A stretch of 64,000 nucleotides of DNA from Porphyridium purpureum (Eukaryota; Rhodophyta; Bangiophyceae; Porphyridiales; Porphyridiaceae): contig VRMN01000010.1 in assembly GCA_008690995.1 (NCBI GenBank), positions 310,001-374,000 of the forward strand, given 5' to 3'. The notes beneath the pieces are model-generated. The model made no database searches. It saw only the letters and a list, made by a program, of their open reading frames with translations, and was not told the DNA's origin. Made by a program: the position numbers and the translations under genes. Of the stretch, positions 3,737 to 57,605 are shown in pieces. How positions within the stretch are numbered: the stretch's first letter is position 1; each line of letters begins with the position of its first letter.

Positions 3737-4279
3737 ATGAAAGGTCTGTGGGGTCCCTTCTACGCGATACGCATCGGGCGGAACTCGTTTCGCGGCGTGC
3801 TGCTGAAAGAGGATGAGTACCAGTTGATGCTGAAGGGCGAAAAGAACCCGATCGCGAGCATAAAGACGAGGCTGACACAGGCGATTGACTTCTGCCGGAC
3901 GCCGAAAGGCGGCGGCTGCTTGACGTGGTATGCATTTCGACACGGCAAGAAGGGTGCGCGGGGGTTTGTCAAGACGAAGGAAAATCTCGAGATCATCAAG
4001 GAGCGCGTGGATGGACCAATGCTTGAGACACATCTCTTTGCGAACGCAACGCAGGCTATAGTGTTCTGTCAGCAGGCTGGAACATCCAGCAAAGACTGGA
4101 AGAAGTTTGGCAAGTCGATCAACTTTCTTTCACAGAACAAGGACCTTTCTGTTCCAATCATGTGGTCCGAGTTTTGGGTCAAAAATGCCGAGCGAGGCGC
4201 GATTCGCACCGGTCCGATTCCACTAAGCAATCCTTCGCTCATGGAAGCACTCGAGAAAGGCTGGGATTCGGAAGATTGA
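3737..4279 (+). CDS. Single-module HBD protein without a presequence
   Basis: This 180-residue protein is the smallest member and the first in the array. Half A starts at residue 8 (F-Y-A-I-R-I-G-R), with F-R-G-V at about 18-21 and the Q-A-I-D-F-C helix at about 48-53. Half B starts near residue 64 with W-Y-A-F-R-H-G-K-K-G-A-R-G and contains F-A-N-A-T-Q-A-I-V-F-C-Q-Q-A-G-T followed by D-W. The module thus begins almost at the start Met, and no targeting sequence is visible. The frame is open upstream to about 3614 but has no earlier ATG, so either the protein is not targeted or a 5' exon was missed. RNA or hybrid binding is inferred from the fold assignment. Confidence 0.75.
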   Translation: MKGLWGPFYAIRIGRNSFRGVLLKEDEYQLMLKGEKNPIASIKTRLTQAIDFCRTPKGGGCLTWYAFRHGKKGARGFVKTKENLEIIKERVDGPMLETHLFANATQAIVFCQQAGTSSKDWKKFGKSINFLSQNKDLSVPIMWSEFWVKNAERGAIRTGPIPLSNPSLMEALEKGWDSED

Positions 4280-4870
4280 GCGATACTTTCGCGCTCAGCT
4301 GAAGCTTGCAGCTCGCGCTTCGCACAGCAAAAAAACAAAAAGAGAAACAGAAAGAGAGTCAGAGTGGAAAGGTCGCATCGGGCACACGTACACGAGGAAG
4401 TATCGCACGCAACGCAAGTCATGCGCAGGACAGTCATGAAGCACAATGCGGCGTGAATTATTTTGCCGTCCGGTGTGTATCCGTCTTGCTTATGATTCGA
4501 AAAGCGGTCTTCAAGAAGTGCGTCATACGCAGGTAAGGCTATGGCGTGCAGCATACGCGTGCAGTCTTTCACCATAGCCTGTTGTCCTGTAGATCAAAGT
4601 CTCAGAAAGACTGCACTAGCGCTGATTTTAGGAAAATCACGAGACAAATCCAGGGTTAGATGCCAATATCGTCACTCGCTTCCTCCTTTGACACGTCCCC
4701 ATGCTCATACCGCGGCCACATGATCGACTCTGTCGTAGTTGGGTTAAATAAGGATTCTTTCTCAGCACGCCCTTGCCCTTGGCGTCCGTTCGCGACGATT
4801 GCAGTCTGTCTCAGGTGAAGCACGCGCGCGTGCGCGCGCAGCGGTAGCAGGCCTCCGAGCATGCGCGGAC
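4280..4870. other. Intergenic, no feature recognised
   Basis: This 591-bp gap has no supported gene. Its right half contains AT-rich GGGTTAAATAAGG near 4741, about 130 bp before the next ATG, which may be part of a promoter. Confidence 0.3.
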
Positions 4871-6868
4871 ATGTTCCTCTTCCGCTCAGTGCAGCTCGCA
4901 CGAGCTAAACGCCTCGAGTCCCTCTGGGATGGAGCACCTTGGCCTCGGCCGGGCAGCGTCGAGGCCTCGAAGAAACGAGCTTTGAAGAAGTCTGGCAAGC
5001 GCGCAAAGCCTGGGAACGGCTCTGATCCAGGCCATGACGGGATCGCCGGGCCATTCTACGCAGTGCGGATTGGACCGGGCGGCTTCCGGGGCGTCATGCT
5101 CCGGAACGCAGAGTACCAGGCCCTGTTGAGTGTGGTGGTCCCGGCGAGAGGGAAAAAGATCGTGGAGCTGAGCGAAGCGCAGGAATATTACCGAGGCGGA
5201 GACAGGAGAGGAATTCCGCCCAACTTCTTTGCGTTTCGGTATGGGAAGGACGGCGCCAGAGGGGTTGTCGTGGGCCCAAGGCATTTGAGGCATATTCAGA
5301 AACGCGTGTCTTCGCCGAGTTTCCAGGTAGAGGAGTTTGATAACGCAACGCAAGCCATGATTTACTGCCAGCAGGCTGGCACGCCTCTTGAAGATTGGAA
5401 AGATGTCTGCGACTCACTGAAGTACCTGGCCAATAACCCCAGTCTGTACATTCCCAATTTGTGGGCAGACTTTTTGGTGCAGAAGACGTTGACAGGTCTC
5501 CTTCCGCGTGGCCCTCTCGTGCCTCCAGATTTGTCTATGGATCCAGCGTGTCCGTCCGGCGAGCTTCCGGGTTTCATGGATCCCATGTCTGCCAATGCGA
5601 AAGCATTTTGGTGTAGCCCGCCTCTGCCACCTCTCTACTACCCGAAAGTCAACAAGCTTGGGATGGTTTTGGACGAAACGAGGCTTGACCTCGATGCACA
5701 AAAGCGAGGCCCCTTCTACGCGATTCGCTGCGGTCGCGGCTGGTTTCGAGGCGTGGTCCTGAAGAAGGAGGACTACAAAGAACTGCTGCGAGGGGCCAAG
5801 GTTGCGAAGGGACGGAAAGAAGAAACACTGACTGAAGCCCTTGCTTTCTGCCGGAGGCGCAAGCCGCGTGGCAGCCTCACTTTTCATGCGTTCCGATATG
5901 GCAAAAATGGCGCCCGAGGTATCGTCCTTGCGCCGGATACCCTCGAGAAGATAGAGAGACGCGTGGGCTCGCCCTTCTTTCAGACGCAACGATTTCAAAC
6001 CGCAACGCAGGCAATCATCTTTTGTCAGCAAGCCGGTACCTCTTCTGTCGACTGGAGGAAACCCGGCAGAGCCATCCGTTATCTTGCGGACAATCCGAGT
6101 CTGGATGTGCCGAGTTTATGGTCTGACTTCCTAGTCAAGAGTTGGCGAAGACCCACTCTTTCGTGTGGCCCGCTGCCTGTTCACCGCACCGCTCCACCGG
6201 TACGCGCACATCCACCGGATTCTCATGTCGAGCAACAAACAAATGTAGCTGTTGCTGCAGACGCAGAGAGCATGGAAGAAGGGCAGCCACTTGCTCAGGC
6301 CCCGCTTCCGGGGACCGTTGATGAAAATCGAGCAACAGCCCGGTTGACGGACGTTGAGGCACGGGACTTTGCTGAGAAGCTCATGCCTTTAAAGGGCCCC
6401 TTTTATGTCATTCGGCGGGGACAGGGCTCGTTTCGAGGCGTGGTGCTGAGAAAGGACGAGTTCCGAGACATAATGGGAGGGCAAAGGGCTTCTATCGGAC
6501 GACGTATAGACTCGTTCCTCGACGCACTCGCAGAATGCCGAAATCCTAAAGGAGGTTGCCATTTATTCTTTGCCTTTCGATATGGCAAGGATGGCGCGCG
6601 CGGACTTGTCAAGACGAGAGAGAACCTGGAGATAGTGCTCGAGCAAGTATATTCTCCTTCGGTTCAGAAGAGGGTATTCCCAACTGCCACGCAAGCACTG
6701 GTCTTTTGCGAACAGGCCGGCACCAAGTACAAGGATTGGAAACGCCTGGGCAGGTCGGTCCGATTCTTCGTGCAGAATCCGCATCTCCGTACGCCGACTT
6801 TGTGGTCCCGCTACTTCATCAGAAGACCGGGACGAAGCCTTGTCATGACGGGTCCCTCCCTCATATAA
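4871..6868 (+). CDS. Triple-module HBD protein
   Basis: The product has 665 residues with three complete modules beginning near residues 62, 282 and 511. Each ends with the helix containing C-(Q/E)-Q-A-G-T and D-W, followed by a P-x-L-W-x-(D/R)-(F/Y)-(L/F)-(I/V) segment. Linkers of about 60-100 residues are Pro/Ala-rich and look flexible. The N-terminus (M-F-L-F-R-S-V-Q-L-A-R-A-K-R-L) is Arg-rich and could be an organelle presequence, although the usual R-x-I-H-x-S motif is absent. The start is the first in-frame ATG. It is the only member here with three modules, which makes it the best candidate for contacting an extended nucleic acid. Confidence 0.8.
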   Translation: MFLFRSVQLARAKRLESLWDGAPWPRPGSVEASKKRALKKSGKRAKPGNGSDPGHDGIAGPFYAVRIGPGGFRGVMLRNAEYQALLSVVVPARGKKIVELSEAQEYYRGGDRRGIPPNFFAFRYGKDGARGVVVGPRHLRHIQKRVSSPSFQVEEFDNATQAMIYCQQAGTPLEDWKDVCDSLKYLANNPSLYIPNLWADFLVQKTLTGLLPRGPLVPPDLSMDPACPSGELPGFMDPMSANAKAFWCSPPLPPLYYPKVNKLGMVLDETRLDLDAQKRGPFYAIRCGRGWFRGVVLKKEDYKELLRGAKVAKGRKEETLTEALAFCRRRKPRGSLTFHAFRYGKNGARGIVLAPDTLEKIERRVGSPFFQTQRFQTATQAIIFCQQAGTSSVDWRKPGRAIRYLADNPSLDVPSLWSDFLVKSWRRPTLSCGPLPVHRTAPPVRAHPPDSHVEQQTNVAVAADAESMEEGQPLAQAPLPGTVDENRATARLTDVEARDFAEKLMPLKGPFYVIRRGQGSFRGVVLRKDEFRDIMGGQRASIGRRIDSFLDALAECRNPKGGCHLFFAFRYGKDGARGLVKTRENLEIVLEQVYSPSVQKRVFPTATQALVFCEQAGTKYKDWKRLGRSVRFFVQNPHLRTPTLWSRYFIRRPGRSLVMTGPSLI

Positions 6869-7211: not shown

Positions 7212-8096
7212 ATGCTGGGGCGCTGTTTGGGCCGGGGACATTACTGGCACGTCGATGTCTTAAGGGGCGTGCTTGACACGCCGCACTGGATACATACGAG
7301 TGCCGTGACGCTGAATCAACCCAGAGTGCGGATCAAATTGAACCCGGATGATTTCCCCAAGCTGGAAAGGGAGAATGATAATCCGTATCATGAGCTGACG
7401 CTCGAAGAGAAACGTGCAAGGGTCCGTACAGAAGACTACGACTTGGGCAAGTTGAAGCTCGTCAACAAGTTTTATGCAATTCGGAAAGGCAAGCACTCGT
7501 TCCGAGGCGTGGTTTTCACGGCAAAGGAGTACGGCTCTTTGGTGCTCGGCATCAAAAATTTCAAAGGCGAACGCGTTGATCACGGTCTAGATAGAGCCAT
7601 CGACTATTGTATGTCCGAGAGGTTCAAGAACCAGAAGCGTTATCCCGCACCACAGTTTGACGCGTTCCGGTATGGCGTCAACGGCGCAAGAGGCATTGTT
7701 GTAAAACCAAACTGTTTTCAGCATGTGCTAGCGCGAGCCGTCTCGCCTCATACAGAGATCGAGTCGTTCCCCACTGCGACGCAAGCGCTGGTGTATTGCG
7801 TCCAGGCCGGCACGCCGTATACAGATTGGGAGGCGCTGGATAGCTCGCTTGTGTTTATGTCATACATGCATCTACAAACGCCAATCTTGTGGTCGAAGTA
7901 CCTGATCATGTACGCGAACAGCGAGCTACCAACCGGCCCGCTCTGTCACCCGGATCCGCCGACGGACAGTTCCACAGTTCAACGGCCCAAGAAAAAGCAG
8001 CCTGCTGTCCTCGAGATCCCGTTTGTGGGCCATGTGCCAGAAGGCTCTGACAGCTCGTCCGGAATTTTTCCGTTGGCCGACCAAGTCGAAGAGTAA
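7212..8096 (+). CDS. Single-module HBD protein with presequence
   Basis: This product has 294 residues. The N-terminal 30 residues form a basic stretch ending in H-W-I-H-T-S-A-V-T-L, a variant of the family presequence motif with His in place of Arg. Half A starts near residue 87 (F-Y-A-I-R-K-G-K), half B near residue 149 (F-D-A-F-R-Y-G). The conserved helix reads Y-C-V-Q-A-G-T-P-Y-T-D-W, with Val in place of Glu. A Lys/Pro-rich tail of about 50 residues follows the module and carries no RNase H-like domain. Confidence 0.8.
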   Translation: MLGRCLGRGHYWHVDVLRGVLDTPHWIHTSAVTLNQPRVRIKLNPDDFPKLERENDNPYHELTLEEKRARVRTEDYDLGKLKLVNKFYAIRKGKHSFRGVVFTAKEYGSLVLGIKNFKGERVDHGLDRAIDYCMSERFKNQKRYPAPQFDAFRYGVNGARGIVVKPNCFQHVLARAVSPHTEIESFPTATQALVYCVQAGTPYTDWEALDSSLVFMSYMHLQTPILWSKYLIMYANSELPTGPLCHPDPPTDSSTVQRPKKKQPAVLEIPFVGHVPEGSDSSSGIFPLADQVEE

Positions 8097-8646: not shown

Positions 8647-11304
8647 ATGTTGAAAGGATGCATCGGATATGAGATATTCCGCCGCATCCGTGTTTCCCGC
8701 GAGGTGTTTGATGCGCCGCGATGGATCCATGCTAGCGCCGCGGCGCTCAAGAAGAAAAGATTCTGCAAAGCGCGTGCGGGTGGGTTGAAACCAGACAATC
8801 GTCACGAGGGCACGTTCTATGCGATCCGTGTTGGCCGCGACTTGTTCCGCGGCATCGTGTTGAGACACGATGATTACGTGAACTTGATGCGCGGCGCAAT
8901 GAGTGCTAAAGGTCAATCGTTCCGTTTGGCGTTTGACAAAGCCAAGGAGTATTGTATGTCCGGAAGGGGTGGCGGCGCGCAGCGTTTTTATGCGTTCCGG
9001 TACGGCCTTCATGGCGCACGAGGGATCGCGGTACGCAAGCCAGACTTTCAGCATGCCACGAAACGCGCCAATTCGCCTGCTCTCCAGAAGGAGGTGTTTG
9101 CGACCGCAACGCAAGCGATAGTGTATTGTGAACAGGCCGGTACTCCGTTGACAGACTCGAAAGATCTACGCGCATCACTGCGGTTTCTGACGCAAAACAG
9201 GAATCTGCGCGTGTCAAGTTTGTGGTCGCGATATCTGATCCACGGCGACATGAAGGGCCTTTCGCCCAGTGGCCCATTGTACCATCCAGAATCGCCCATC
9301 GCGGAGACCGAACGCCCAAGAGTTGTTGCAGAATCGGCTGCTCTTTCTCCAGCCGCTCTACCTGCTGAATCTACCACTGACACCGGCATAGGTGCCGCGA
9401 CGGTCGGTGATCCCATCAAGGTGCTGGCGCATGAAACCAGCGCAGTCGCGCGTGCGCTTGATCGTGAAGCGTTGGATGATGCTGTGAGGATATCGCAGTC
9501 TCTGCTTAGTTTCGTGGAAAAGCTGCACAAGCAAGTCTTGGATGCCCGGAACGTGAAAGAGCGAGCGGAAAGGCATCGAAAAACACTAGCAGAAATGGAG
9601 CTCATGGCAAAAGAACGCAGTCGATCCATCCTCGAAGCAACAGGAAATGTCGAAACAGCCCGTAACGCAGAGCGCATTGAGGCGTACATTCAAGGAGAAG
9701 CTTTGCCGCGCGATATGAAGGGCTTCACAGCCGTTGCAATGCTTCACTCAGTCCTTCACTTTAGCGAGAGAGACACGAAGCCGCCGATAGGTGTGGATGC
9801 AAGCCGTCTGTTCGTTTCAAGCGAAGCCGCTTCTATCGCGAGGAATTTCAGCATAGCTGGAAGCACGGACACCGCGAAGAAGACTGGCGATCGGGTTGAA
9901 CTTGAGGCGTTGTTGCTGGCTCTCAACTACTTCATTCTGAGGTATTTGGACACTGGCGAGGAAAGCGTGAAACGAATAGTGCTGAAAACGCGCAGCCGGT
10001 ACTGTCTTTCGCGGTGCAACACGTACTTGCCCAAGTGGCGAGCAAAGGGCTGGCGGATGAGCTACAAAGTGAAACATCAAGACCTTTGGGAGGTTTTCGA
10101 TACGCGACTTTTGATACTGCGGTCTGTTTGTGACGTCTCATTCGAGCTTGGAGCTTTTGATGAGCATGCGTTTCACCATTCCCCCACAGTGGGTGGCGGT
10201 GCAGACTTTGCAACGAGAAGTCTTTGGAGCAGCACATACCGCCAAAGTCTTTCGGAAGTTCTTGTCGATGGCTCATTCAGACTATCGCGGATGGGGCGGG
10301 ACAAGGCAAGGATTGGCGTGTATTTCGGGAGTGATTCGTCGTGTAATGTGGCCGCCGTGTGGCCCATCAGTCTTGTGAAACCCAGGACTTCAATGCAAGT
10401 CGAGGTTCTCGCGGCAATTTGCGGACTGGACCAAATTCTGCGCTACACGCTAGCCGGGTCGCGATCGGTACTGCCTTCGACAGAAGAGGTTGTACTTTAC
10501 ACGGACTTCAATACCACACCAAAATTGATCGCCCAGCTGGATGCGTTATGGGCTGATGACCTCGAAACGAACCCTGGGCATCTGTGGAAATGGACCATGG
10601 GACTTTCTGGTGGACAAAATGGCTTGTACCATTCGCAGAATGAGCTGGAAAATCATGCGAGAGGACTTGGTGAGCGGCCTGGCAGAACTGCGCCGCTTTT
10701 TGATTTGCTGACGCCCTTGTATCTTCGGGTACTTCTCGTGCGATGCTTGCGATGGTTGCAAGTGATGTGGGTACCCCGCGAGTCCAACAAGCATGCTCAT
10801 AAGCTAGCTGGCATTGCAAGTGAACTTACGTACAACCAGCAGAACCAGCGAGTCGTCGATGTTGTGGGCGCTCAGATACAGAACTCCCGTCGCATCGAGC
10901 TGGACCGCAATATCATTGCGTCGCTCCACTGCCATCCACGCCTCGCAGAGATGGTGGCACCCATGCCTGGCGTGGCGCAGGAGCTCGAGAATGCTGACGT
11001 AACAGCTGAGAGCACTGATGATGATGATGAGGATCCAAACGCTGGCTCAGACGGTAGTGCTACGGACCAGGACTTTTGGGTCGCTCCAAAGGAACCGGAA
11101 CCGGTGCTCACGGATTCTGACATGGACACGGATGCAGTGAACGAAGAGCGCGAGCCGTCGAATTCGACCATTGACCCTGATTTTCTGATGAAGGACACAT
11201 GGCAGGCGCGAACGGGTTCCGACATTGAGATGGATGACTCAGATTTGGACTCGGATAGGGACGACCACATGTACTACTTTGAGCACGCGTTTGACTCGGA
11301 CTAA
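8647..11304 (+). CDS. Full-length member: HBD module, pseudo-RNase H1 and RNase H-like domain
   Basis: The 885-residue protein shows the complete family layout. Residues 1-40 form a presequence ending R-W-I-H-A-S-A-A-A-L. Half A starts near 55 and half B near 114. A helical linker covers about 250-340. About 343-503 resembles RNase H1 (E-L-E-A-L-L-L-A-L...Y-C...K-W-R-A-K-G-W...D-L-W), but the first Asp is replaced by Gln (Y-I-Q-G) and the third-motif Asp by Arg (K-T-R-S-R-Y). About 535-725 is a second RNase H fold with V-D-G-S (D541), V-E-V-L-A-A (E586), Y-T-D-F (D620) and V-P-R-E-S-N-K-H-A-H-K-L-A, where H718 sits in place of the fourth Asp. A strongly acidic tail ends the protein. Residual nuclease activity is possible only in the second domain. 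Confidence 0.8.
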   Translation: MLKGCIGYEIFRRIRVSREVFDAPRWIHASAAALKKKRFCKARAGGLKPDNRHEGTFYAIRVGRDLFRGIVLRHDDYVNLMRGAMSAKGQSFRLAFDKAKEYCMSGRGGGAQRFYAFRYGLHGARGIAVRKPDFQHATKRANSPALQKEVFATATQAIVYCEQAGTPLTDSKDLRASLRFLTQNRNLRVSSLWSRYLIHGDMKGLSPSGPLYHPESPIAETERPRVVAESAALSPAALPAESTTDTGIGAATVGDPIKVLAHETSAVARALDREALDDAVRISQSLLSFVEKLHKQVLDARNVKERAERHRKTLAEMELMAKERSRSILEATGNVETARNAERIEAYIQGEALPRDMKGFTAVAMLHSVLHFSERDTKPPIGVDASRLFVSSEAASIARNFSIAGSTDTAKKTGDRVELEALLLALNYFILRYLDTGEESVKRIVLKTRSRYCLSRCNTYLPKWRAKGWRMSYKVKHQDLWEVFDTRLLILRSVCDVSFELGAFDEHAFHHSPTVGGGADFATRSLWSSTYRQSLSEVLVDGSFRLSRMGRDKARIGVYFGSDSSCNVAAVWPISLVKPRTSMQVEVLAAICGLDQILRYTLAGSRSVLPSTEEVVLYTDFNTTPKLIAQLDALWADDLETNPGHLWKWTMGLSGGQNGLYHSQNELENHARGLGERPGRTAPLFDLLTPLYLRVLLVRCLRWLQVMWVPRESNKHAHKLAGIASELTYNQQNQRVVDVVGAQIQNSRRIELDRNIIASLHCHPRLAEMVAPMPGVAQELENADVTAESTDDDDEDPNAGSDGSATDQDFWVAPKEPEPVLTDSDMDTDAVNEEREPSNSTIDPDFLMKDTWQARTGSDIEMDDSDLDSDRDDHMYYFEHAFDSD

Positions 11305-11413
11305 ACGTAAATCTTTTTTGCCGGTAGGGTGCACCTCCCACGCAGCCGTGCGGGTCGTCTGCACGCCGCGCAAAGGGGAGCGCCGGACAGATCTACGGTC
11401 GGCGCTGCCGGCC

Positions 11414-14005
11414 ATGTTGAAATGCGCTGGCAGTAGATGTTTTCGTATTCTCCGCATCACGCGTGCGACCGCACGCCGAGGCATTCACAGCGGGCGCCCG
11501 GAATGGGAAGCGACGCCGGTGGCGCCGGCGTCCGGTCCTCCGCTGGACGGTCCGTTTTACGCGATAGTGAATGGACGTCACCAGTTCCGCGGCGTCGTGT
11601 TGCGCAAGATCGAGGCCGAAGAGCTGGTGAAACGGGATCCGATATCCATGATAGCAGGCCAGATGAGCCCGTTTGCGCACGCGATGCCGACCGAGACGCT
11701 CAAGGAGGCGATCGATTTCTGCTCAGGCGGACGGGGCGCAAATGAATTTTTTGCATTTCGTCACGGGTTGCGCGGTGCACGCGGCATTGTGGTGAAGCCA
11801 AGCGTCTTTTATCGAGTAAGCATGCGGGCGCGGGCGCGCTCGTTCGAGGTTAGAGTCTTTGACAACACGACCCAAGCTCTGATTTTCTGCGAGCAGGCGG
11901 GAACAATGGAGACTGACTGGGAGAGCATGGAGAAAGCCGTCTCCTTCCTGGCTAGAAATCCACAGCTGCATTCGCCCGCGCTGCTGGAGAAATTTGTGGT
12001 CAAGCGAAAGGATGCAAGTCTTCCAAGCGGTCCTCTTCCGATCACCAAAGAACAGATCGATTCCAATCATCAAGGCGCACAACGCTCAGTCGCCGAAAGT
12101 GTGGTCCGATTCCTGACCAGTCGTCCCGTAACCGCTATGGCTCACGAAGTTGTCAGTATTGCTGCGAAGCTTGACGTCCAGCGGCTCAATCAGATTTCCG
12201 ATAAGACACGCGATCTGCTCGGCCTGATGCAGAGGCTTCATGTGACTGCGGTGAGAGCTCTGGAAGCAAAGGCCAGAGAAGAAGATGAACGGCGGACAAG
12301 GGAGTGTGCGCGAAGAGCGCTCGAGGAAGCGTCAATCAAAGCCGATGAGTACCATGCCATACATGCCGAGGCCTACATCCATGGGATGGCTATCGACTGT
12401 TCCGCGACATCGTGCAATGCAGCTGCCGCGCTGTACCTGGTTCAGCACCTTTCTGGCAAGGATGGCATTCGCCCTGTCCACGTGCATGCAACTCGTCTTT
12501 TCGAATCCAGCGAGCACATGGAGCCATGGATGCAATCAAGTGACGACGTGAATCACTTGATACCAAATCGATCCAGCGATCTGCTAGAGGTCGAAGCGCT
12601 TTTATTGACGCTGAACTATTTTATCCTCCACTACCTGGACAATGGAACGTACAGGCTCGAACGTTTGACCTTGAGAACAAAGAGCAAGTACTGTGCGTCG
12701 CGATGCAATACGTACCTCCCAAAGTGGAGGGACAAGGGCTGGAAGATGAGTTACAAGGTGAAGCATCAGGAGCTCTGGCAAGCCGTCGATACTCGACTGC
12801 TGCTTTTGAAATCTCTTTGCGAGGTCACGATCGAGTGGACGTCTTCTGACGATCAACACTGGGATCAAGCGCCTTTTCGCCCTTCGACAAGTGATCTTCG
12901 ATTGCTTTCTGACTGGCTCTGTGAGCAAGACCCGCAAGAAGCTGGCAAAAGAGCGGAAGGCGCTTTGATCCCTGTAAGTGGCCTTGATTTTGCAACCAGA
13001 GGCGTCTGGAGCGATAGTCATACCCAATCCTTCGACTACGTGCATGTTGATGCCTCGCACACTCCAAAGGGACTGAACAGAGCCAAGGCAAGTTTAGGAG
13101 TGCATTTTGGAATCGCAGATTCGCGCAATGTTGCTGCTTTGTGTCCTTCGAACCTGACCGAAGTTGAAGGCTCGTACGGAGTGGAGCTTTTGGCTGCGGC
13201 TTGTGGTCTCGACCAAATTTTGCGCTTCACTTTGGCCGGCTCACCCCATGTGGAGCCAAAGCTAAACGCAGTGACACTGTTTTCTGACTTTCGCCCCTTC
13301 GCAGAGCAACTCGCTGAAATTGATGCTTGCTGGACCGAAGGTTTCGACCTGGCCAAGACAGGGATGTCTCCCTTGTCTGGTCGTTTCTCTGCTATTTGGA
13401 TAGTCATGTATGTGCGCATACTTCTAATACGATACTTTCGACCCTTGATCATCAAGTGGAAGCCCCGCGAGACCAATGAGGCCGCGCACGAGCTTGCGCT
13501 TGTCGGAAAAGATGAAGCATATGACTGCATCCACAACCAGCGCATCGTCAATACGGTGGGTGCGCACGTGCAAAGCACCGAGCATCATGCGCTGGACATG
13601 AAGCTTATTGCATTTCTGCTTCAGATACCAAAGGTCTTTGATGCGACGAGGGAGCATCTAGCCATGTACGGAAGCGAATTGATGACGAGCATGGACTCCT
13701 CGGCTCCATCCAATGACGACAGCGCGATCTTCGATTCTTATCGTCCAGCTCGCGGAAACGAAGCTCTAGCGGGTACTACCATGGACTCCGAAGAGCTTTT
13801 CCACGCTCATGCTCGGTCCGACGACGATGAGCCTGGGGCTGCATCCGACGCAGACTGGAAAGACGACTTCTACTCCTTTCCCGGAGAGACCGAGTCGGAT
13901 GAGTTCACGGACGAATACGGCATGGTGAATGATGAGTCGCCCGCGGATCCTCTAGATGACGATGCGTCCGACATGTGGAGCTATCTGGGCAGGTTCTACG
14001 AGTAG
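11414..14005 (+). CDS. Full-length HBD/RNase H-like member, close relative of its left neighbour
   Basis: This 863-residue protein has the same layout as the gene at 8647. The presequence ends A-R-R-G-I-H-S-G. The module begins near residue 48 (F-Y-A-I-V-N-G-R) with half B near 112. The pseudo-RNase H1 domain starts near 317 (A-Y-I-H-G) and again lacks the acidic residues. The second RNase H fold keeps D546 (H-V-D-A-S), E591 (V-E-L-L-A-A) and D625 (F-S-D-F), and has H692 in P-R-E-T-N-E-A-A-H-E-L-A. Through C-N-T-Y-L-P-K-W-R-x-K-G-W-x-M-S-Y-K-V-K it is nearly identical to its neighbour, which suggests a fairly recent duplication. The C-terminal 150 residues are acidic. The ATG at 11414 follows the neighbour's stop by 109 bp. 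Confidence 0.8.
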   Translation: MLKCAGSRCFRILRITRATARRGIHSGRPEWEATPVAPASGPPLDGPFYAIVNGRHQFRGVVLRKIEAEELVKRDPISMIAGQMSPFAHAMPTETLKEAIDFCSGGRGANEFFAFRHGLRGARGIVVKPSVFYRVSMRARARSFEVRVFDNTTQALIFCEQAGTMETDWESMEKAVSFLARNPQLHSPALLEKFVVKRKDASLPSGPLPITKEQIDSNHQGAQRSVAESVVRFLTSRPVTAMAHEVVSIAAKLDVQRLNQISDKTRDLLGLMQRLHVTAVRALEAKAREEDERRTRECARRALEEASIKADEYHAIHAEAYIHGMAIDCSATSCNAAAALYLVQHLSGKDGIRPVHVHATRLFESSEHMEPWMQSSDDVNHLIPNRSSDLLEVEALLLTLNYFILHYLDNGTYRLERLTLRTKSKYCASRCNTYLPKWRDKGWKMSYKVKHQELWQAVDTRLLLLKSLCEVTIEWTSSDDQHWDQAPFRPSTSDLRLLSDWLCEQDPQEAGKRAEGALIPVSGLDFATRGVWSDSHTQSFDYVHVDASHTPKGLNRAKASLGVHFGIADSRNVAALCPSNLTEVEGSYGVELLAAACGLDQILRFTLAGSPHVEPKLNAVTLFSDFRPFAEQLAEIDACWTEGFDLAKTGMSPLSGRFSAIWIVMYVRILLIRYFRPLIIKWKPRETNEAAHELALVGKDEAYDCIHNQRIVNTVGAHVQSTEHHALDMKLIAFLLQIPKVFDATREHLAMYGSELMTSMDSSAPSNDDSAIFDSYRPARGNEALAGTTMDSEELFHAHARSDDDEPGAASDADWKDDFYSFPGETESDEFTDEYGMVNDESPADPLDDDASDMWSYLGRFYE

Positions 14006-16829: not shown

Positions 16830-16950
16830 TACTAGGTCTGACCTGTAAAATGTATAGCGGCGCGCTTGCGTCCACTGCACCTTGTCCATGAGAGCAGACG
16901 CAGAAGGCGGACCACGAGTGAAAATAGGGGCGGGAAGGCTTCATGGAAGG

Positions 16951-19831: not shown

Positions 19832-20809
19832 ATGCGCATCTTTCTCATCGGCATTCGGGATCCCATGTCGTGTCGCTCTGTTGCCTTGGGAAGTGTCCAG
19901 GGCGGTCGACGTGGACGCACGTGGGCCGCACGCCTTCAGGGCGACTACCCGGACCGGGCATCCAAATGGATTCGTGCGGGCGCCGCGGCGCTCCTCCGAA
20001 ATACGTCGACCTCGCCTCACGCGCCCAGTTGGGATGAGGCGGATGGAGGGAACGGAACAGGGCCCGCTGCGGCCGATGCCACGGCGCAAGCTCCGGTCTT
20101 CGCGATCTGCGGCGGCCGCGACTCGTTTAGAGGCATTGTCATGACAGCGCCAGAATGTGAATCGCTCACCAGTGGGACGTCTGGAGCCGTTGTTGAAACA
20201 CGAAGCGACGTGAAGCAAGCCGCATTGTACCTGCGCGCAGCGGTAAACGCGGCGCAAGAATCGATGTTCTATGGCTTCCGGTACGGACTGAATGGATCGC
20301 GCGGATACACGATCTCACCGGATGTTTTCAAGGCGCTGCTTGAGCGCGTAAACGGGCCGGAAATTGAGAGAAAGGTTTTCAAGAACACGACACAAGCGCT
20401 GGTTTTCTGCGAGCAGGCCGGTACTACTGGAGAAGACTGGCACAAGTTGGAGACGGCGGCTCTGTACTTGCAGAGAAATCCCTTCCTCAGCACACCAAGC
20501 ATGATGGCTGCATACTTTGTTCCGTCGCCGGATGCAGAGCTGTGGAGCGGGCCCTCTGTTGGAATTCTCCACACACAGACCGAAGCAGCTCGACTTCATG
20601 AGCCGGACTCTTTGCATGCCCCCCCGACAATCAATGACTCAATCGTCTCATCTCTGGCGCGCGATATTGTTCGCGACCTGGACGATGCCTCGCTCCATCA
20701 CGCGGTCGGAGTGTCCAGAAAGCTGTATGACATCGCGAGCAAGGTGCATGCTGTCATCTTAGAAGCCCGAGACGCCAAGCGGAGCGAACGAGGGACGGAC
20801 CAAACCTGA
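19832..20809 (+). CDS. Single-module member ending in the helical linker
   Basis: This 325-residue protein starts at the ATG at 19832 (an in-frame ATG at 19865 is also plausible). A basic N-terminus leads to K-W-I-R-A-G-A-A-A-L. The module starts near residue 90 (V-F-A-I-C-G-G-R) and includes F-K-N-T-T-Q-A-L-V-F-C-E-Q-A-G-T. After it comes a helix (L-A-R-D-I-V-R-D-L-D...V-S-R-K-L) that matches the linker preceding the pseudo-RNase H1 domain in the long members. The protein stops just there, so it looks like a long member that lost its C-terminal two thirds. I could not recognise RNase H remnants after the stop. Confidence 0.75.
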   Translation: MRIFLIGIRDPMSCRSVALGSVQGGRRGRTWAARLQGDYPDRASKWIRAGAAALLRNTSTSPHAPSWDEADGGNGTGPAAADATAQAPVFAICGGRDSFRGIVMTAPECESLTSGTSGAVVETRSDVKQAALYLRAAVNAAQESMFYGFRYGLNGSRGYTISPDVFKALLERVNGPEIERKVFKNTTQALVFCEQAGTTGEDWHKLETAALYLQRNPFLSTPSMMAAYFVPSPDAELWSGPSVGILHTQTEAARLHEPDSLHAPPTINDSIVSSLARDIVRDLDDASLHHAVGVSRKLYDIASKVHAVILEARDAKRSERGTDQT

Positions 20810-51066: not shown

Positions 51067-51082
51067 TTTTTTTTTTTTTTTT
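51067..51082 (+). repeat. Run of 16 T residues
   Basis: A homopolymer T run lies between the ligase gene and the next HBD gene (gap 50846-51355), where no other feature is seen. Confidence 0.9.
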
Positions 51083-51355: not shown

Positions 51356-52066
51356 ATGCTTTTGCGGCTGGCACGACATCGTTTCTTGACGCATCGGTCA
51401 CTCCACGACATCCGCGTCGCGGTCGCGACTGGAGTATCGGCGTTGACCCCGGCTGGGTACGTCCACACGTGCGCAGTGGCGCCGAAGGCAAAGACGCTCG
51501 AAGCGGAAGACGACGACGGACCGCGCGTGGGCCCTGGCGGCGCTGTGAAGTGGTCGCATTTGGCTCCTGAAGGAGTGGAAGATGACGACGAGGACGAGCT
51601 GCCTGGCCCGTTCTACGCGATTCGGCATGGGCGTGACAAGTTCCGCGGCGTCGTTGTGCGACCGAAGGAGCATATTGCTCTCATCCAGGGAGTGAAGGAT
51701 TCGTACGGACGCAAGGAAGAGACGCTGGAAAAGGCCATCCGCTCTTATCAGCATCACAGTGACCAATCGTGGCGACGATTCTTCGCCTTCCGGCTCGGCG
51801 GCGCTGAAGGTGTGTCAAGAGGCATTGTCGTGACGCAGCCGACTTGGAAGCTGATAGCAAAGCGCGTAGAGTCGCGGACGCTCGAAAAGGTAGAGTTCAA
51901 CAACATGACTCAAGCGCTGGTGTTCTGCGAACAGGCCGGGACACCGGGCACCGACTGGCACACCCTGGAACGCGCGATCCGGTTTCTAGCGAGGAAACCC
52001 GAGTTGAGTACTCCCGACATGATGGACAAGTACATCATGCGGATTTCCGACTTGTGCCTGTTCTAG
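51356..52066 (+). CDS. Single-module HBD protein, compact
   Basis: The product has 236 residues. The N-terminus is rich in Arg and His (L-L-R-L-A-R-H-R-F-L-T-H-R) and ends A-G-Y-V-H-T-C-A-V-A-P-K. An acidic stretch and A-V-K-W-S-H come next; this is the W-P element with Ser for Pro. The module starts near residue 86 (F-Y-A-I-R-H-G-R-D-K-F-R-G). Half B has an altered strand, F-F-A-F-R-L-G-G-A-E-G-V-S-R-G, with a small insertion. F-N-N-M-T-Q-A-L-V-F-C-E-Q-A-G-T is intact. Confidence 0.8.
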   Translation: MLLRLARHRFLTHRSLHDIRVAVATGVSALTPAGYVHTCAVAPKAKTLEAEDDDGPRVGPGGAVKWSHLAPEGVEDDDEDELPGPFYAIRHGRDKFRGVVVRPKEHIALIQGVKDSYGRKEETLEKAIRSYQHHSDQSWRRFFAFRLGGAEGVSRGIVVTQPTWKLIAKRVESRTLEKVEFNNMTQALVFCEQAGTPGTDWHTLERAIRFLARKPELSTPDMMDKYIMRISDLCLF

Positions 52067-52296: not shown

Positions 52297-54735
52297 ATGA
52301 CCCGATGGCCAGTCGGATCGAGATGGATACAGCGACCCATCATCATGACACACCGCGCGGTGCACGCAATCGCGTTGCCGAGTGGCTGGCTGCGAGGCAT
52401 GCACTCTTGTGCATTGGCTCTGAAACGAGCGACAAATGGAGCCGTACAGGAGGAAGGGCAAACGCCACATCAGCACATGGATTGGGCCTCTGAATTCGGA
52501 CGCGCCGTGGATGAGGATGGCAAGTCGTCCTCAAGCAGCGACACGGACACGGAGCTGACGACAGGCGGCTCGTCGACCAGGCTGAACAGCAGGCGTGATG
52601 AAGACACCGACGGTTTCCACGGCGAGCAGACAGATGGCCAGCTTGCAGGCAAGAATGTTGAAACAATTGGCGATGATACATCGCATGTAGCCGATGGCGA
52701 TGGCGACGTTGACACGAATACGTTGGCGGCGGGTCCGTTCTATGCCATTCGGTATGGGCGCAACTCATTTCGAGGCGTCGTAAAGGACGTCAACGTTTTT
52801 CTCGAATTGATCCGAGGAGAGAGAAAAACAAGGGTGAAGGCTGGGCTGCAGCCGTCGCTGGAAAGGGCGATGGAGTTCTGTCTCATGGGTCGTCCTGATG
52901 CACCATTGGGGAGTTCTTTTTTCGCGTTTCGCTATGGGAAGAAAGGCGCGCGAGGAATCACAATCACCGAGCGCATGTTTAAAACGATTCTCCCTCGCAT
53001 CGAAGCGCCATCGCTGGAAGTATTTCGGTTCAATAACACAATGCAACCGCTTGTTTTCTGCGAGCAGGCAGGAACCTCGCAAACGGATTGGAAGTCACTG
53101 CGAGCATCGATCTTATTTCTGGCAAAGCCCGAGCCCAAGGTTCCCATTCCCAAATTGCTGTACAAGTACGTGATTAAGAAAGAAACCACCCAACTGCAGA
53201 AAGGACCACCCAATCCTGCTGGTCCCAAGCCTGCGGATACAGAGCATCAGCCTACTACTACGGAAGACACGGCGACCAGCGCGACATCGGCAAATATCGG
53301 CCTTGAAGATGAATCTTTTGTCGAGGCCGTGAATGCATTGGTGGGTGACGTGAGGCAGTTTGCCCAAAGGCTCGATGCCGAAGCGTTGGATCATGTGCTC
53401 GAGATTGTAGGAAAACTGCGCGGCACTGTTGGTGACTTCACAGCTGTCGCGGAACAAGCACTGGAAAAAAGACTGCAGCTCGCAGATGCAAATGTCAGAG
53501 CGCCTATTCCCGTGCACGAGGAAAGTCCGCTAGACCGTGGCTCAGTCGACTCGGACAAGCTTGTGCATGTTGAAAGCCCAAAACCCCTGCTCGTAAGCAG
53601 TGCGAAGCACATTGATGCTTATATTGAAGGCTCTTATGTCGAGTATCCCGACGCGGAGCACAATGCGGTCGCAAAGCTTCGTGTCGCGTATCATTTTGGC
53701 GACATGAGTTCGTCAATCCAGTATCATGTCGGTGAGAAAGCTTTTCGTCTGTTCCAGTCGAGCGACGATGTGCAGACCACTGAGGATCTCGTGGAGCTCG
53801 AAGCACTCGTGCAAGCTCTGAATTATTTCATCGTGCGCTTTTTCGACACTCCCGAGGAGCATGCAATGAAGAGTATGACCTTGAAATCGCGCAGCATGTA
53901 TTGCATTTCCCGGTGCAATGAATTCATTCCAAGGTGGCGACAAGATCGCTGGCGTTTGACGGCTGCTATGCAACATATGGCGCTCTGGTCAGCTTTTGAT
54001 GCCCGGCTGATGTTCGTGGAAGCTTTTTCAACTGTGAAATTTGAGTTGTGGGTCGATGGCGAGCCTGAAACTGACATCAAATCATCGTCTGGGCGTGCAG
54101 CAGGTCCTCGAGTAGGACCTGCCAGCCTTCATGCGTCATCGGGCGGTCAAGGAATGGAACACGAAATGAAAGTGAGTCTTGAGGACGACAACTCGAGCTT
54201 GAGAAGAGCTTGGAGCGTGGGACAACCTGGGCATATTGACAAGGTGCTTGTGGACACAAGGTTCGACGAACACGGGAGGCTAATGGTCCGAGTGTTTTTC
54301 GGTGACGGCGATCCTCGCAACGTTTGCGCGACGTGTTCACTACTACTGTCAGAAGCTTGGAATAAGCGCAAAGCCAGCATGTTCGCGTTAGCGTGCGGCT
54401 TGGACCAAATCTTGCGTCACACATTGGTCAGTTCTCACTCGGCTTTTGCAAAGCAGAGCGATGTGGTCGTCTGTGCGAAGGGTTTGAAAGCTGAAGACGT
54501 AGAATCACATTTGAGAGAGCTATCAACGAGCTTCCCTGCTTTGCGTGTAGCCCTGTCTCTTCGCCTAAGGCTGCTGAAGAAGTTGCGAGGTATCGAGGTG
54601 CTCGAGTTTACAGACCAAGAGAGCGAAATAACAATATCGAACGTGCAGAACGAACGCGTGGTGAGCACGATCCTGTCACAGCTGCGGAGCAGCAAAAGAC
54701 TCGAACTTGACCGTAAGATCCTCGTTGCCATGTAA
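52297..54735 (+). CDS. Full-length HBD/RNase H-like member, second RNase H fold decayed
   Basis: This 812-residue protein begins with a basic stretch ending L-R-G-M-H-S-C-A-L-A-L; the ATG at 52345 is an alternative start. After an acidic, polar linker the module begins near residue 148 (F-Y-A-I-R-Y-G-R-N-S-F-R-G), half B near 208, with F-N-N-T-M-Q-P-L-V-F-C-E-Q-A-G-T. A helical linker leads to the pseudo-RNase H1 from about 437 (A-Y-I-E-G-S, where Glu takes the first Asp's place). The second RNase H fold keeps only D653 (L-V-D-T-R): the Glu position is Met (A-S-M-F-A-L-A), the next Asp is Ala, and the final motif is unrecognisable. The acidic tail of the genes at 8647 and 11414 is missing. 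It should not be a nuclease. Confidence 0.78.
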   Translation: MTRWPVGSRWIQRPIIMTHRAVHAIALPSGWLRGMHSCALALKRATNGAVQEEGQTPHQHMDWASEFGRAVDEDGKSSSSSDTDTELTTGGSSTRLNSRRDEDTDGFHGEQTDGQLAGKNVETIGDDTSHVADGDGDVDTNTLAAGPFYAIRYGRNSFRGVVKDVNVFLELIRGERKTRVKAGLQPSLERAMEFCLMGRPDAPLGSSFFAFRYGKKGARGITITERMFKTILPRIEAPSLEVFRFNNTMQPLVFCEQAGTSQTDWKSLRASILFLAKPEPKVPIPKLLYKYVIKKETTQLQKGPPNPAGPKPADTEHQPTTTEDTATSATSANIGLEDESFVEAVNALVGDVRQFAQRLDAEALDHVLEIVGKLRGTVGDFTAVAEQALEKRLQLADANVRAPIPVHEESPLDRGSVDSDKLVHVESPKPLLVSSAKHIDAYIEGSYVEYPDAEHNAVAKLRVAYHFGDMSSSIQYHVGEKAFRLFQSSDDVQTTEDLVELEALVQALNYFIVRFFDTPEEHAMKSMTLKSRSMYCISRCNEFIPRWRQDRWRLTAAMQHMALWSAFDARLMFVEAFSTVKFELWVDGEPETDIKSSSGRAAGPRVGPASLHASSGGQGMEHEMKVSLEDDNSSLRRAWSVGQPGHIDKVLVDTRFDEHGRLMVRVFFGDGDPRNVCATCSLLLSEAWNKRKASMFALACGLDQILRHTLVSSHSAFAKQSDVVVCAKGLKAEDVESHLRELSTSFPALRVALSLRLRLLKKLRGIEVLEFTDQESEITISNVQNERVVSTILSQLRSSKRLELDRKILVAM

Positions 54736-54863
54736 TCTAGGTGCGCGCGCTGTGTGGAAACCGAGCTTCATCCGTAGTCCACCACGACGGAACAAGACGG
54801 GTTCCCTGAGCTCATGACAATCATTCGAGCATCATAAAGTAAAAACCGCGCGACTTGCTGGAG

Positions 54864-57605
54864 ATGGTCGCGTGGCCCACGAGACACCGATGCACACACT
54901 TTGTTACGCGCCACGTGGTAGAGGCCGGCGGCAAGCCGGCGAGCGGCGTTGAAAAGCAGCGAGCTTTGCACAGCTGCGCGGTTTCGCGGAATGGGAACAG
55001 AGGCCAGCGTCAAAGCGACGCGGAAACAGCGGCTTTCCGCGGTGAAAGGAATAGAAGTGAGCCAAAGCTTGCCGCGGAGCGCACCTCGCCATCCGGGCCG
55101 CCAAGCAAACTGGTCGGTCCGTTTTACGCGATTCGGAATGGTCTCGATTCTTTTCGAGGTGTAGTAATGAGACAAAGTGAGTTTCATGAGCTCAGTGCCA
55201 ACGCGCCCAACGCAGAAACACGAATCGAGCCAGCGCTGGCGCAGGCCATGGAGTATTGTCTTGCGCCAAGTGACAAGGCGCCGGCGACATTTTTCGCATT
55301 CCGCCACGGATTGGACGCTGCACGTGGGATCATGCTTTCGTACGACATCGTCAGACGAGTCCTGCCTCGCGTCCAGACGCCGACGATTGAAAGGTTACAG
55401 TTCTGCAACATGGTGCAACCGTTGGTGTTTTGCCACCAGGCCGACACTGGCGGCACTGACTGGCACTCTCTCGAAGGATCTCTTGGATATTTGGCGCGCC
55501 ATCCGAGTTTGAGCGTTCCTGTGCTGATGTCACAGTTCGTGGTTTGCCAAAGAGATGGCGGCGCTCTCAGTGATTTATTGAAAGAAGACGTGCGACGTCC
55601 TCAATTTTTTGCCTTTCGTCGTGGCTTCTTTGGTGCGCGAGGAGTCGCGATCTCGAAGGAGGTGTTTCAAGGCATCTTGCCCCGGATCAAGTCGCCAACG
55701 CTGGAAACCGCGCGTTTCAACAACCTGGTGCAGCCCTTGGTCTTCTGCGACCAGGCTGCAACCACCAAAACGGATTGGCACACATGGGAGAGGTCTCTTC
55801 GCTGCTTGTCGAGAGACTCGAACCCGGCGATCTTTCGCGATCTGATGTCTGAATATATGGTCAAGCACCCAGAAGTTCAACTTGCAAAGGGTCCGGAGCG
55901 CGCGGAGAGCGAACCAGAAGTAGACGCGCCGTGTGGGCGACGTATGGTGACTGATTCCTTGGCGTCTGCTGTGTACCGCAGGCACGATGCAGCGGACCAG
56001 TATCTGGAATCCACACCTTTGGATCCCAAAGCAGACATAGAACTTATCCGCGTGATGCAAGAGGTAGCTCTGAACCAAGGGCGCGGTGATCGTACGGCGC
56101 CGCATGTCAAGCGCATAGATGCCTACGTGCGAGGGTCCTCGGTTGTCCGGTCCGATGACGCGAACGGGATCGCAATGCTGCTTCTAGATTATCATGTGGA
56201 CGATGAAAAGGGATCCGTCATGCATGCGGGTGCTCGGCGTCTATTTCATTCGACACATGCTTCGTGCCTGGAAAAGGAGTCAAAAGACTCGCAGCGATCG
56301 CCACCGCAAGAGTTTTTGGAGCTCGAAGCGCTCGTGCTAGCCCTGAACTTTTTCATATTGCGCCACCTTGACACAGAAGGGCAGAGCGTCGAGAGATTGA
56401 CGCTCAAGACGCAAAGCTCCTACTGCGTTTCCTGCTGCAATGCATTTCTCCCTAAATGGAGGGAGAAAGATGGACGCATACGTCCTGGTGTCATACCGCG
56501 TCGCCCCAAGACGGGAAAGTCCAAAGCAAAGCGGATCCCGCAGCAAAATATAAAGCAGTGGCGACGGCAGATGAGATCCAAGCGGCGGAAGAGAAGGTTG
56601 GCCGTGTTGAGGCAAATGAGGGATGCCGAAGCACGGTCGAACCCTCTACAAAGACTCTGGGAGGCCATTGACACACGCCTTATGATTTTGAGAGCCTTTT
56701 GCCAGGTGTCTATTGAGCAGTGGGATCCGCGACTAGGCGGCCTAGACCAACGAGCCTTCAGTCTTTCCGGGAAAGGGATGGAGCAGCACGGAATTGCTCT
56801 GTGTGATGACCATGCGAACTCAAAAGCCCGAGAAGGAATCCCCTTCCGTATCGAAGGTTATGATGATGACGTAGATAAGGTTACAAGGAGCCGTTGGAGC
56901 GATTGGAATCCGAACATTGGCAGCATCGATCAGGTACTCGTTGATGCTTGTTATGAACCCAAGCGCGGAAGATCGACAGTAGCCGCGTATGTGGGCGAAA
57001 GGGATACGCGCAACGTTGCCGGCATCTGGACGCTGGACCGCGACTTGGGCCCCCGGGATGAAATTGGATGGGGTTTGCAGCATGCTGAGATGCTTGCCAT
57101 CGTGTGCGGGTTGGACCAGATCCTTCGAAGCACGTTAAGTGGCGCTCGCTGCACCGACTCACAGTTGCGTGGTGCGTTGCTATTGAGTAACTTGACTCAG
57201 GTGCGAGACGGCCTGGAGAATCTGGAAGCTCGCTGGGTCATTGACCTGCGTGAAAATCCAGGTGCCTTGAGAAAAGTCAAGCGCTCTCCGCAATTTGCTG
57301 GAAAGTTTCGCAGTCTGTGGATTGCCATATTTGCGCGCGTACTCCTCATCCGATGCTTCCGACGCGTGCGAGTAGGTTTTCGGGCGCGCGAGAACTTGAT
57401 CCAGGCCACACGACTCGTTGTGTCGACAACCAATGCTGCGCTGGCGTCAAATCAGGGGGTCATTGATGCGCAACTTGAACAGCTCGGGAGTAGGACGCGG
57501 TTAGCGCTGGACTGTGAGCTGATTGCTTCGCTCCACAATGTACACAAACTTCCGGGCTCGCCGCTTCGGTCCGACAACTTCTTCGTGGGCAATAAACACA
57601 AATAG
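54864..57605 (+). CDS. Full-length HBD/RNase H-like member with a half module and a basic insertion
   Basis: The product has 913 residues. The N-terminus ends Q-R-A-L-H-S-C-A-V-S-R. The module starts near residue 87 (F-Y-A-I-R-N-G-L-D-S-F-R-G). A second copy of only half B follows near 248 (F-F-A-F-R-R-G-F-F-G-A-R-G, then F-C-D-Q-A-A-T). The pseudo-RNase H1 domain carries an Arg/Lys/Gln-rich insertion of about 55 residues between K-W-R-E-K and R-L-W-E-A, the site of the basic protrusion in bacterial RNase HI. The second RNase H fold keeps D694 (V-D-A-C) and E742 (A-E-M-L-A), has N776 (L-S-N-L) in place of Asp, and has Thr at the last acidic position. The gene ends 100 bp before the next start codon and is the last array member. 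Confidence 0.78.
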   Translation: MVAWPTRHRCTHFVTRHVVEAGGKPASGVEKQRALHSCAVSRNGNRGQRQSDAETAAFRGERNRSEPKLAAERTSPSGPPSKLVGPFYAIRNGLDSFRGVVMRQSEFHELSANAPNAETRIEPALAQAMEYCLAPSDKAPATFFAFRHGLDAARGIMLSYDIVRRVLPRVQTPTIERLQFCNMVQPLVFCHQADTGGTDWHSLEGSLGYLARHPSLSVPVLMSQFVVCQRDGGALSDLLKEDVRRPQFFAFRRGFFGARGVAISKEVFQGILPRIKSPTLETARFNNLVQPLVFCDQAATTKTDWHTWERSLRCLSRDSNPAIFRDLMSEYMVKHPEVQLAKGPERAESEPEVDAPCGRRMVTDSLASAVYRRHDAADQYLESTPLDPKADIELIRVMQEVALNQGRGDRTAPHVKRIDAYVRGSSVVRSDDANGIAMLLLDYHVDDEKGSVMHAGARRLFHSTHASCLEKESKDSQRSPPQEFLELEALVLALNFFILRHLDTEGQSVERLTLKTQSSYCVSCCNAFLPKWREKDGRIRPGVIPRRPKTGKSKAKRIPQQNIKQWRRQMRSKRRKRRLAVLRQMRDAEARSNPLQRLWEAIDTRLMILRAFCQVSIEQWDPRLGGLDQRAFSLSGKGMEQHGIALCDDHANSKAREGIPFRIEGYDDDVDKVTRSRWSDWNPNIGSIDQVLVDACYEPKRGRSTVAAYVGERDTRNVAGIWTLDRDLGPRDEIGWGLQHAEMLAIVCGLDQILRSTLSGARCTDSQLRGALLLSNLTQVRDGLENLEARWVIDLRENPGALRKVKRSPQFAGKFRSLWIAIFARVLLIRCFRRVRVGFRARENLIQATRLVVSTTNAALASNQGVIDAQLEQLGSRTRLALDCELIASLHNVHKLPGSPLRSDNFFVGNKHK

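Follow-up and report, generated by a model that had tools for sequence, protein, structure and literature searches.

A tandem array of 24 nuclear genes in the red alga Porphyridium purpureum is almost certainly a family derived from the alga's own RNase H1, as judged from sequence comparisons and a modeled structure. The genes are built from a module of two fused RNase H1-type hybrid-binding domains (HBDs; half A and half B), and some also carry RNase H-like domains (R1 and R2). Our account as a whole, in which these duplicated and decayed RNase H1 derivatives are imported into the mitochondrion and act as diversified RNA-binding factors, is a tentative one, to which we give slightly less than even weight.

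Overall organization of the array

The window is the whole 64,000-nucleotide stretch of DNA that was analyzed. An iterated profile was run against every stop-to-stop open reading frame (ORF) of at least 25 residues on both strands of the window. It found 30 matches to the double-HBD module, of which 29 are full copies and one (55590-55895) has half B alone. All 30 are on the + strand, spread over 24 ORFs, each with an E value below 1e-35, in agreement with the initial annotation of about 29 full modules and a half copy in 24 genes on one strand. The best match in the window outside this set has an E value of 0.11, and therefore the set has a sharp boundary. The array limits given earlier, 3737 and 57605, are also correct, the first being the sole in-frame ATG upstream of the first module and the second the final stop. 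In pairwise comparisons, the full modules (n = 29) are on average 38% identical (range 29-54%). The reading frames are still open and show a codon pattern typical of purifying selection. The genes are as follows ("no motif" indicates that the presequence-like N-terminal motif was not found in the first 80 residues).

Gene 1, 3737..4279, + strand: one module (3758-4216); only 7 residues separate the first ATG from the module, which leaves the true 5' end in doubt.
Gene 2, 4871..6868, + strand: three modules (5054-5515, 5714-6172, 6401-6856); no motif.
Gene 3, 7212..8096, + strand: one module (7470-7940); N-terminal WIHTSA without Arg.
Gene 4, 8647..11304, + strand: presequence-like RWIHASA; module (8815-9276); pseudo-RNase H R1 (9658-10167); RNase H-like R2 (10249-10929), D-E-D readable.
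Gene 5, 11234..14005, + strand: module (11555-12034); R1 (12344-12856); R2 (13031-13621), D-E-D readable; RRGIHSG 80 residues past the first ATG.
Gene 6, 14334..16829, + strand: presequence-like RRWIHGSA; module (14601-15053); R1 (15480-16169); second module (16239-16718).
Gene 7, 16888..19722, + strand: module (17401-17850); R1 (18250-18780); R2 (19006-19596); no motif.
Gene 8, 19832..20809, + strand: one module (20096-20554); no motif; stops within the linker, ahead of where an RNase H domain would begin.
Gene 9, 21303..22025, + strand: presequence-like RWIHACG; module (21513-21971).
Gene 10, 22659..23729, + strand: presequence-like RSIHAS; module (22920-23369).
Gene 11, 25783..26472, + strand: module (25999-26469); no motif.
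Gene 12, 27447..28772, + strand: presequence-like RWMHSS; module (27768-28271).
Gene 13, 29161..30459, + strand: module (29416-29886); no motif.
Gene 14, 31032..32780, + strand: module (31713-32183); RRSIHTSA sits 152 residues past the first ATG, so translation probably begins farther downstream.
Gene 15, 33883..34824, + strand: presequence-like RRWIHASA; module (34174-34623).
Gene 16, 35419..36183, + strand: presequence-like RGCFHTSA; module (35680-36129).
Gene 17, 36667..37698, + strand: presequence-like RAIHASA; module (36910-37377).
Gene 18, 38205..39524, + strand: presequence-like RQLHASA; two modules (38517-38975, 39000-39449).
Gene 19, 39900..40610, + strand: presequence-like RSLHTS; module (40194-40604).
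Gene 20, 41107..42216, + strand: presequence-like RRQIHSSG; module (41380-41835).
Gene 21, 45658..47250, + strand: two modules (46087-46539, 46663-47139); N-terminal RRSFSTCS, without the His motif.
Gene 22, 51356..52066, + strand: module (51611-52045); no motif.
Gene 23, 52297..54735, + strand: presequence-like RGMHSCA; module (52738-53208); R1 (53587-54066); degenerate R2 (54235-54732).
Gene 24, 54864..57605, + strand: presequence-like RALHSCA; module (55122-55556) and half module B (55590-55895); R1 (56094-56738); R2 (56925-57536).

The double-HBD module

The first module of gene 21 was modeled (window 46081-46548), and the beta-beta-alpha-beta-alpha fold of the human HBD was recovered, which supports the initial reading of each module as two fused HBDs. 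The curated PF01693 model matched none of five module proteins at E values up to 10 (modules from 5 of the 24 genes), and a genome search with it (six candidates scored) found only the two RNase H1 genes. The array modules and the P. purpureum RNase H1 have the same five-residue hairpin loop.

The Trp and Lys-Lys grip on the hybrid that characterizes RNase H1 HBDs is not kept intact in half A. The Trp is retained in only one of the 29 half A copies, as compared to 124 of 128 RNase H1 HBDs, and its site is highly variable. The first hybrid-contacting Lys is Lys or Arg in 22 of the 29 copies (124 of 128 in RNase H1) and the second in 11 of 29 (100 of 128). Half B also lacks the Trp and the Lys pair, as judged by eye, yet it is more conserved than half A (8 invariant columns in 30 rows versus 3 in 29 rows). 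Moreover, 25 of the 29 modules are basic, and the mean net charge is +7.5.

The W43A mutation is reported to compromise hybrid binding by the human HBD (PMC10639055). Because the Trp is gone, the modules would no longer be RNase H1-type grips for RNA:DNA hybrids. They may bind structured or double-stranded RNA via the remaining basic face, but the loss could equally signal that nucleic-acid binding has been lost altogether. The modules would then serve to bind proteins, for instance as components of an unusual ribosome or complex in the mitochondrion. The conservation of half B without the HBD residues is consistent with such a structural use, as is the catalytic decay of R1 (see below), but the positive charge of most modules argues against it, and we consider it quite unlikely.

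The RNase H-like domains

An RNase H-type domain (R1) follows the HBD module in 6 of the 24 genes, and a second one (R2) is present in five of these six; the other 18 genes have no RNase H domain. Comparison with RNase H by hhalign gave 98.5% for R1 and 96.6% for R2 (5 genes). The catalytic D-E-D-D of an RNase H1 enzyme was not found in these domains. In R1, the second catalytic Asp is replaced in all six cases (by R, K, P, R, R and Q), and no residue is aligned at the last Asp, so that R1 is inactive as judged by its sequence. In R2, D-E-D is present in two of five domains (genes 4 and 5), with His in the fourth place (by eye; the alignment reached only some of the sites), and at least one of the three is missing from each of the others. 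Of the five R2 domains, the two with D-E-D could still be able to cut.

The closest sequence to R1 is the alga's own RNase H1 in five of the six domains. This enzyme is the top match for only one of the four R2 domains with matches, and the fifth R2 matched nothing. Among PDB profiles, R2 best matches a CDK2-associated protein to which it is unrelated (E 0.30), followed by Rv2228c (3hst_B, E 0.52). The assignment of R2 is weaker than that of R1.

Origin and relatives

No relatives were found outside P. purpureum, one scan of viral contigs included, consistent with the lineage-specific expansion proposed earlier. Within the alga, a multi-HBD gene on C8/C15 (L026, L027) resembles the array in having a chain of half-A-like HBD units (best 51 bits) followed by sequence that aligns to both RNase H-like domains (R2 part, E 1.7e-7), but the A-B unit is not found throughout. 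It consists of overlapping ORFs in different frames, which may reflect introns or breaks, and Pfam RNase_H had no match in the two ORFs scanned.

The PF01693 HBD is named after caulimovirus protein VI, whose HBD-like domain Pfam groups with that of RNase H1, and RNase H is common among retroelements. This background would suit a cast-off of a retroelement or pararetrovirus with HBD and RNase H, as would one sub-threshold match (E 0.0097) of the last part of the gene 4 R2 to RVT_3, itself an RNase H-like family. However, no polymerase, integrase or capsid families were found in the proteins scanned whole, namely the six of the 24 array proteins that bear RNase H domains and eight neighboring ORFs. 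The proximity of R1 to the alga's own RNase H1 and the empty viral-contig scan also speak against this origin, which is extremely improbable. Unlike the protein VI domain, the five module proteins compared with PF01693 did not match it.

N-termini and targeting

The presequence-like motif is present at 13 of the 24 N-termini, which are not 13 independent events because the paralogs partly share it by descent; in the other 11 it is absent from the first 80 residues. As a control, it was found in one of 18 elongation-factor-type ORFs read (L065), and the ORFs taken as EF-Tu and EF-G of the mitochondrion carry motifs of the RRF type rather than that of the array. Many array products are probably targeted to the mitochondrion by an Arg-rich N-terminal presequence.

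Mitochondrial setting and possible functions

The P. purpureum mitogenome is reported to have 46 introns versus 14 intron-encoded proteins and to be roughly threefold larger than any of 81 other red algal mitogenomes compared; the plastid genome is likewise rich in introns (43), and the authors infer that introns expanded in P. purpureum once it had split from P. aerugineum (PMC8742464). The P. aerugineum mitogenome has only 9 introns, and that of P. purpureum contains a large repeat region. The link between intron load and the array is a correlation within one species.

RNase H1 is described as working on hybrids in the mitochondria of both humans and Arabidopsis (PMC6317783, PMC8330923). The array proteins might still bind RNA:DNA hybrids and do the same job, handling R-loops, primers or recombination within a mitogenome rich in repeats. 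Their RNase H1 ancestry, the mostly basic first Lys position and the large mitochondrial repeat region agree with such a role in mtDNA maintenance, but the Trp is gone in 28 of 29 copies, the human W43A result points the other way (PMC10639055), and 24 diverged paralogs would be a large number for a sequence-blind job. We regard this role as unlikely.

A role in keeping mobile group II introns in check for the host is quite improbable. The proteins would target RNA/cDNA intermediates of retrohoming, in an arms race with introns invading the mitochondrion. RNase H1 is reported as a retrohoming host factor in E. coli, where rnhA deletion leaves 11-15% (PMC3636086). The intron expansion after the P. 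aerugineum split is in line with this, and conflict would fit old, diverse tandem arrays, but most members have no RNase H domain. Orthologs of the array genes were not found, and the paralogs are too diverged for positive-selection testing.

In the account that we favor, sequence and predicted structure support an ancestral RNase H1 (HBD and catalytic domain) whose HBD was duplicated to give the fused A-B pair and gained a two-helix tail. In some genes the catalytic domain was doubled and decayed, and 18 genes are without it. The genes multiplied in place with their frames kept open and the codon pattern noted above, and many products probably enter the mitochondrion. Every paralog may have diversified toward its own target, with R1 as a non-catalytic clamp or scaffold. 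Jointly, the proteins would be trans-acting factors for the maturation of the intron-laden mitochondrial transcripts, a role that we consider plausible but put below an even chance.

The PPR, OPR, mTERF and restorer-like PPR proteins form nuclear multigene families, with diversified paralogs and tandem clustering. By analogy, the array would have in common with PPR, OPR and mTERF families a nuclear multigene organization, presumed organelle import and diversified tandem paralogs. Unlike them, it is not an alpha-solenoid and has HBD folds as building blocks. The array might be Porphyridium's own PPR/OPR substitute, consisting of mitochondrial RNA-recognition factors made from duplicated RNase H1 HBDs, with one paralog per group II intron or transcript, the inactive RNase H domains acting as RNA clamps, and the former RNA:DNA-specificity residue as a hypervariable specificity site. 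In this detailed form the proposal is somewhat unlikely.

Eukaryotic RNase H1 shares with the array the HBD fold, tandem HBDs (two in the yeast and Drosophila enzymes, as reported in PMC7657459) and, for six array genes, an RNase H-like domain C-terminal to the HBDs. The array differs in its fused A-B pair with two-helix tail, its 24 tandem genes, the loss of the Trp, the predicted inactivity of R1, and the many members without RNase H.

If our account is correct, a family of organelle RNA factors specific to this lineage would have arisen from a replication and repair enzyme. Plants meet the same problem with PPR proteins and green algae with OPR proteins; here an independent answer would have evolved in a red alga that has few PPR proteins and an outsized mitogenome. 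The 29 re-engineered HBD copies are a natural series that may reveal replacements for the hybrid-binding tryptophan, and the intron link is open to direct comparison between P. purpureum (46 mitochondrial introns) and P. aerugineum (9).

Organization of the array

When all stop-to-stop ORFs in the window with at least 25 aa are searched with an iterated profile, 29 full copies of the module and one half copy are found, located in 24 ORFs, each with an E value below 1e-35. The best match outside this set has an E value of 0.11. The initial annotation of about 29 full modules and a half copy in 24 genes on one strand is confirmed. The array is real, and chance is excluded.

3737..57605, + strand: array of 24 genes
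Gene 2: three modules
Genes 6, 18 and 21: two modules each
Gene 24: one and a half modules
The other nineteen genes: one module each

The module has about 152 residues and was proposed to consist of two fused RNase H1 hybrid-binding domains (HBD, PF01693); this assignment of the fold is right. Half A (FYAIRxGRDxFRGVV) opens the module and is followed by half B (FFAFRxGxxGARG...FxNxTQALVFCEQAGT) and a conserved C-terminal tail (TDWxTLExSxRFLAxNPxLxxPxLxxxY...GP). Half B is the more rigid, with 8 invariant columns (30 rows) as compared to 3 in half A (29 rows), and 25 of the 30 stretches cut as half B share a length of 54 residues.

Other ORFs are found in and beside the array.

1760-2491, - strand: SPOUT methyltransferase (E = 1.1e-17), adjoining the array
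24232-25515, + strand: 427-aa ORF between genes 10 and 11, with internal Arg/Glu/Ala-rich repeats and no Pfam match
26737-27282, + strand: 181-aa ORF between genes 11 and 12, with a gene 12-like start and a presequence-like RWMRTSVLVMK but lacking the module; probably a paralog after module loss
48248-50845, + strand: RNA ligase-like ORF within the array, with a P-loop part and a match to RNA_lig_T4_1 short of the cut-off (E = 0.0012); perhaps a tRNA-splicing ligase

Nucleic-acid contact residues

RNA:DNA binding by the human HBD is compromised by the W43A and KK59/60AA mutations (PMC10639055). Of 128 RNase H1 HBDs, 124 have the Trp residue, as compared to 1 of 29 half A copies, and its former column ranks fourth in variability among the 44 of half A, with 14 residue types. 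The two Lys positions of half A are basic in 22/29 (first) and 11/29 (second) copies, and 25 of the 29 modules have basic character. Classical hybrid binding may have been lost or altered in the modules with a basic, RNA-facing surface kept, and the former Trp site would have turned variable between paralogs.

RNase H-like domains

Six of the 24 genes (4, 5, 6, 7, 23 and 24) contain a first RNase H-like domain (R1) downstream of the module, which the initial annotation overlooked. R1 aligns with RNase H1 catalytic domains in hhalign at 98.5% over 82 columns, and all 45 of its PDB profile matches are RNases H by name (best E = 0.0011). The Pfam RNase_H matches all fall short of the curated cut-off.

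E values of R1 to Pfam RNase_H (all short of the curated cut-off)
Gene 4: 3.1e-5
Gene 5: 0.098
Gene 6: 0.061
Gene 7: 6.8e-5
Gene 23: 0.028
Gene 24: none

A second such domain (R2) is present in five of these genes, gene 6 being the exception (96.6% over 126 columns; twenty shuffles each for R1 and R2 give at most 0.6%). The identity of R2 is less certain than that of R1: its PDB profile matches fall short of significance (3hst_B, E = 0.52).

The second catalytic Asp of R1 is replaced in all six domains (by R, K, P, R, R and Q) and no residue is aligned at the last one, so R1 should be inactive. Inspection by eye finds at least one of the D-E-D set of R2 missing in genes 7, 23 and 24, and the whole set readable in genes 4 and 5, where the fourth place is taken by His. 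Since E. coli RNase HI tolerates a His there, residual activity is possible for R2 of genes 4 and 5.

Origin and related loci

The genome has two ordinary RNases H1 with PF01693 (contig C43, positions 2540917 and 3989140), one annotated 'Ribonuclease H [Porphyridium purpureum]'. Two of its phycobilisome linkers align to chains of 6kgx, an entry named in papers on P. purpureum phycobilisomes, across 342 of 342 and 490 of 490 residues, with no mismatch seen in the alignments. One of the two RNases H1 is the best match of R1 in five of six domains, and of R2 in one of the four with any match, among 121 RNases H1 that were collected by their similarity to one of these enzymes and are not a neutral sample. 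Of the 115 RNase H1 HBDs scored, four (both P. purpureum enzymes and proteins P0004 and P0005) have a hairpin loop of 5 residues and the other 111 one of 3; in half A the loop has 5 residues in 27 of 29 copies. The most similar modules lie nearer each other in the array than by chance (P = 0.0002, same-gene modules included), and module differences at the three codon positions are 0.46, 0.40 and 0.65. Tandem duplication together with purifying selection would be expected to leave such a pattern.

A second cluster is located on the same contig (C22), some 127 kb away from where the array ends.

C22 494-498 kb (locus L025:3598-7016), - strand: three further double-HBD genes

Two of the three share the N-terminal motif of the array, as judged by eye. 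Two protein searches covering 5.77 billion sequences, in which 1900 and 8000 candidates were scored, find the module family solely on C22, where one member is annotated as hypothetical protein FVE85_3676. One scan of viral contigs found no relative.

A further locus occurs on two contigs (C8:381001-391000 and C15:10501-20000) with 99.4% identity over 9.5 kb, reflecting either a duplicate contig or a recent duplication. It contains a chain of HBDs, the best scoring 51 bits against half A, followed by sequence aligning with R1 and R2 (E = 1.7e-7 for the R2-like part), the gene being spread across overlapping frames. The locus looks like an intermediate.

N-terminal segments

The motif R-x-(I/L/M/F/V)-H-x-(S/C/G/A), or a near variant of it, is found within 80 residues of the first ATG in 13 of 24 genes, a count to be read with the motif partly inherited by descent among paralogs. 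Composition shuffles give a mean of 0.53 and a maximum of 5 in 2000, and 1 of 18 control ORFs has the motif. It is absent from genes 1, 2, 7, 8, 11, 13 and 22, and the remaining genes have variations.

Genes 5 and 14: motif deeper than 80 residues
Gene 21: RRSFSTCS instead
Gene 3: motif without the Arg

Basic residues outnumber acidic ones over the first 40 positions in all 24 genes (only 7 residues for gene 1). The motif is similar to the Arg motif of mitochondrial presequences. Putative mitochondrial EF-Tu and EF-G ORFs carry RRF-type motifs rather than that of the array, and an ATP synthase alpha-like ORF has VHASP. The MAFV start is seen in 3 of 4 plastid linker ORFs read and, loosely (MAF), in gene 21 alone of the array. 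A mitochondrial address is probable for many of the array proteins.

Possible role in organelle RNA

The family extends beyond the initial annotation in its RNase H-like domains, its probable mitochondrial address and its lost hybrid-binding residue. Its members are decayed RNase H1 derivatives that may act as RNA-binding factors in mitochondria; this function of the array is a testable inference. The proteins could instead manage hybrids in mtDNA, be purely structural, or control intron retrohoming, which requires RNase H1 in E. coli (PMC3636086).

PMC8742464 gives 46 introns and 14 intron-encoded proteins for the 132 kb P. purpureum mitogenome, 9 and 5 for that of P. aerugineum, and 43 introns for the P. 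purpureum plastid. The number of PPR proteins in a red algal species is reported to be below 10 (PMC13126933), and at least 11 ORFs of the P. purpureum genome have PPR matches. The gap between the many introns and the scarce PPR and intron-encoded proteins would be filled by a family of mitochondrial RNA factors of the alga's own making.
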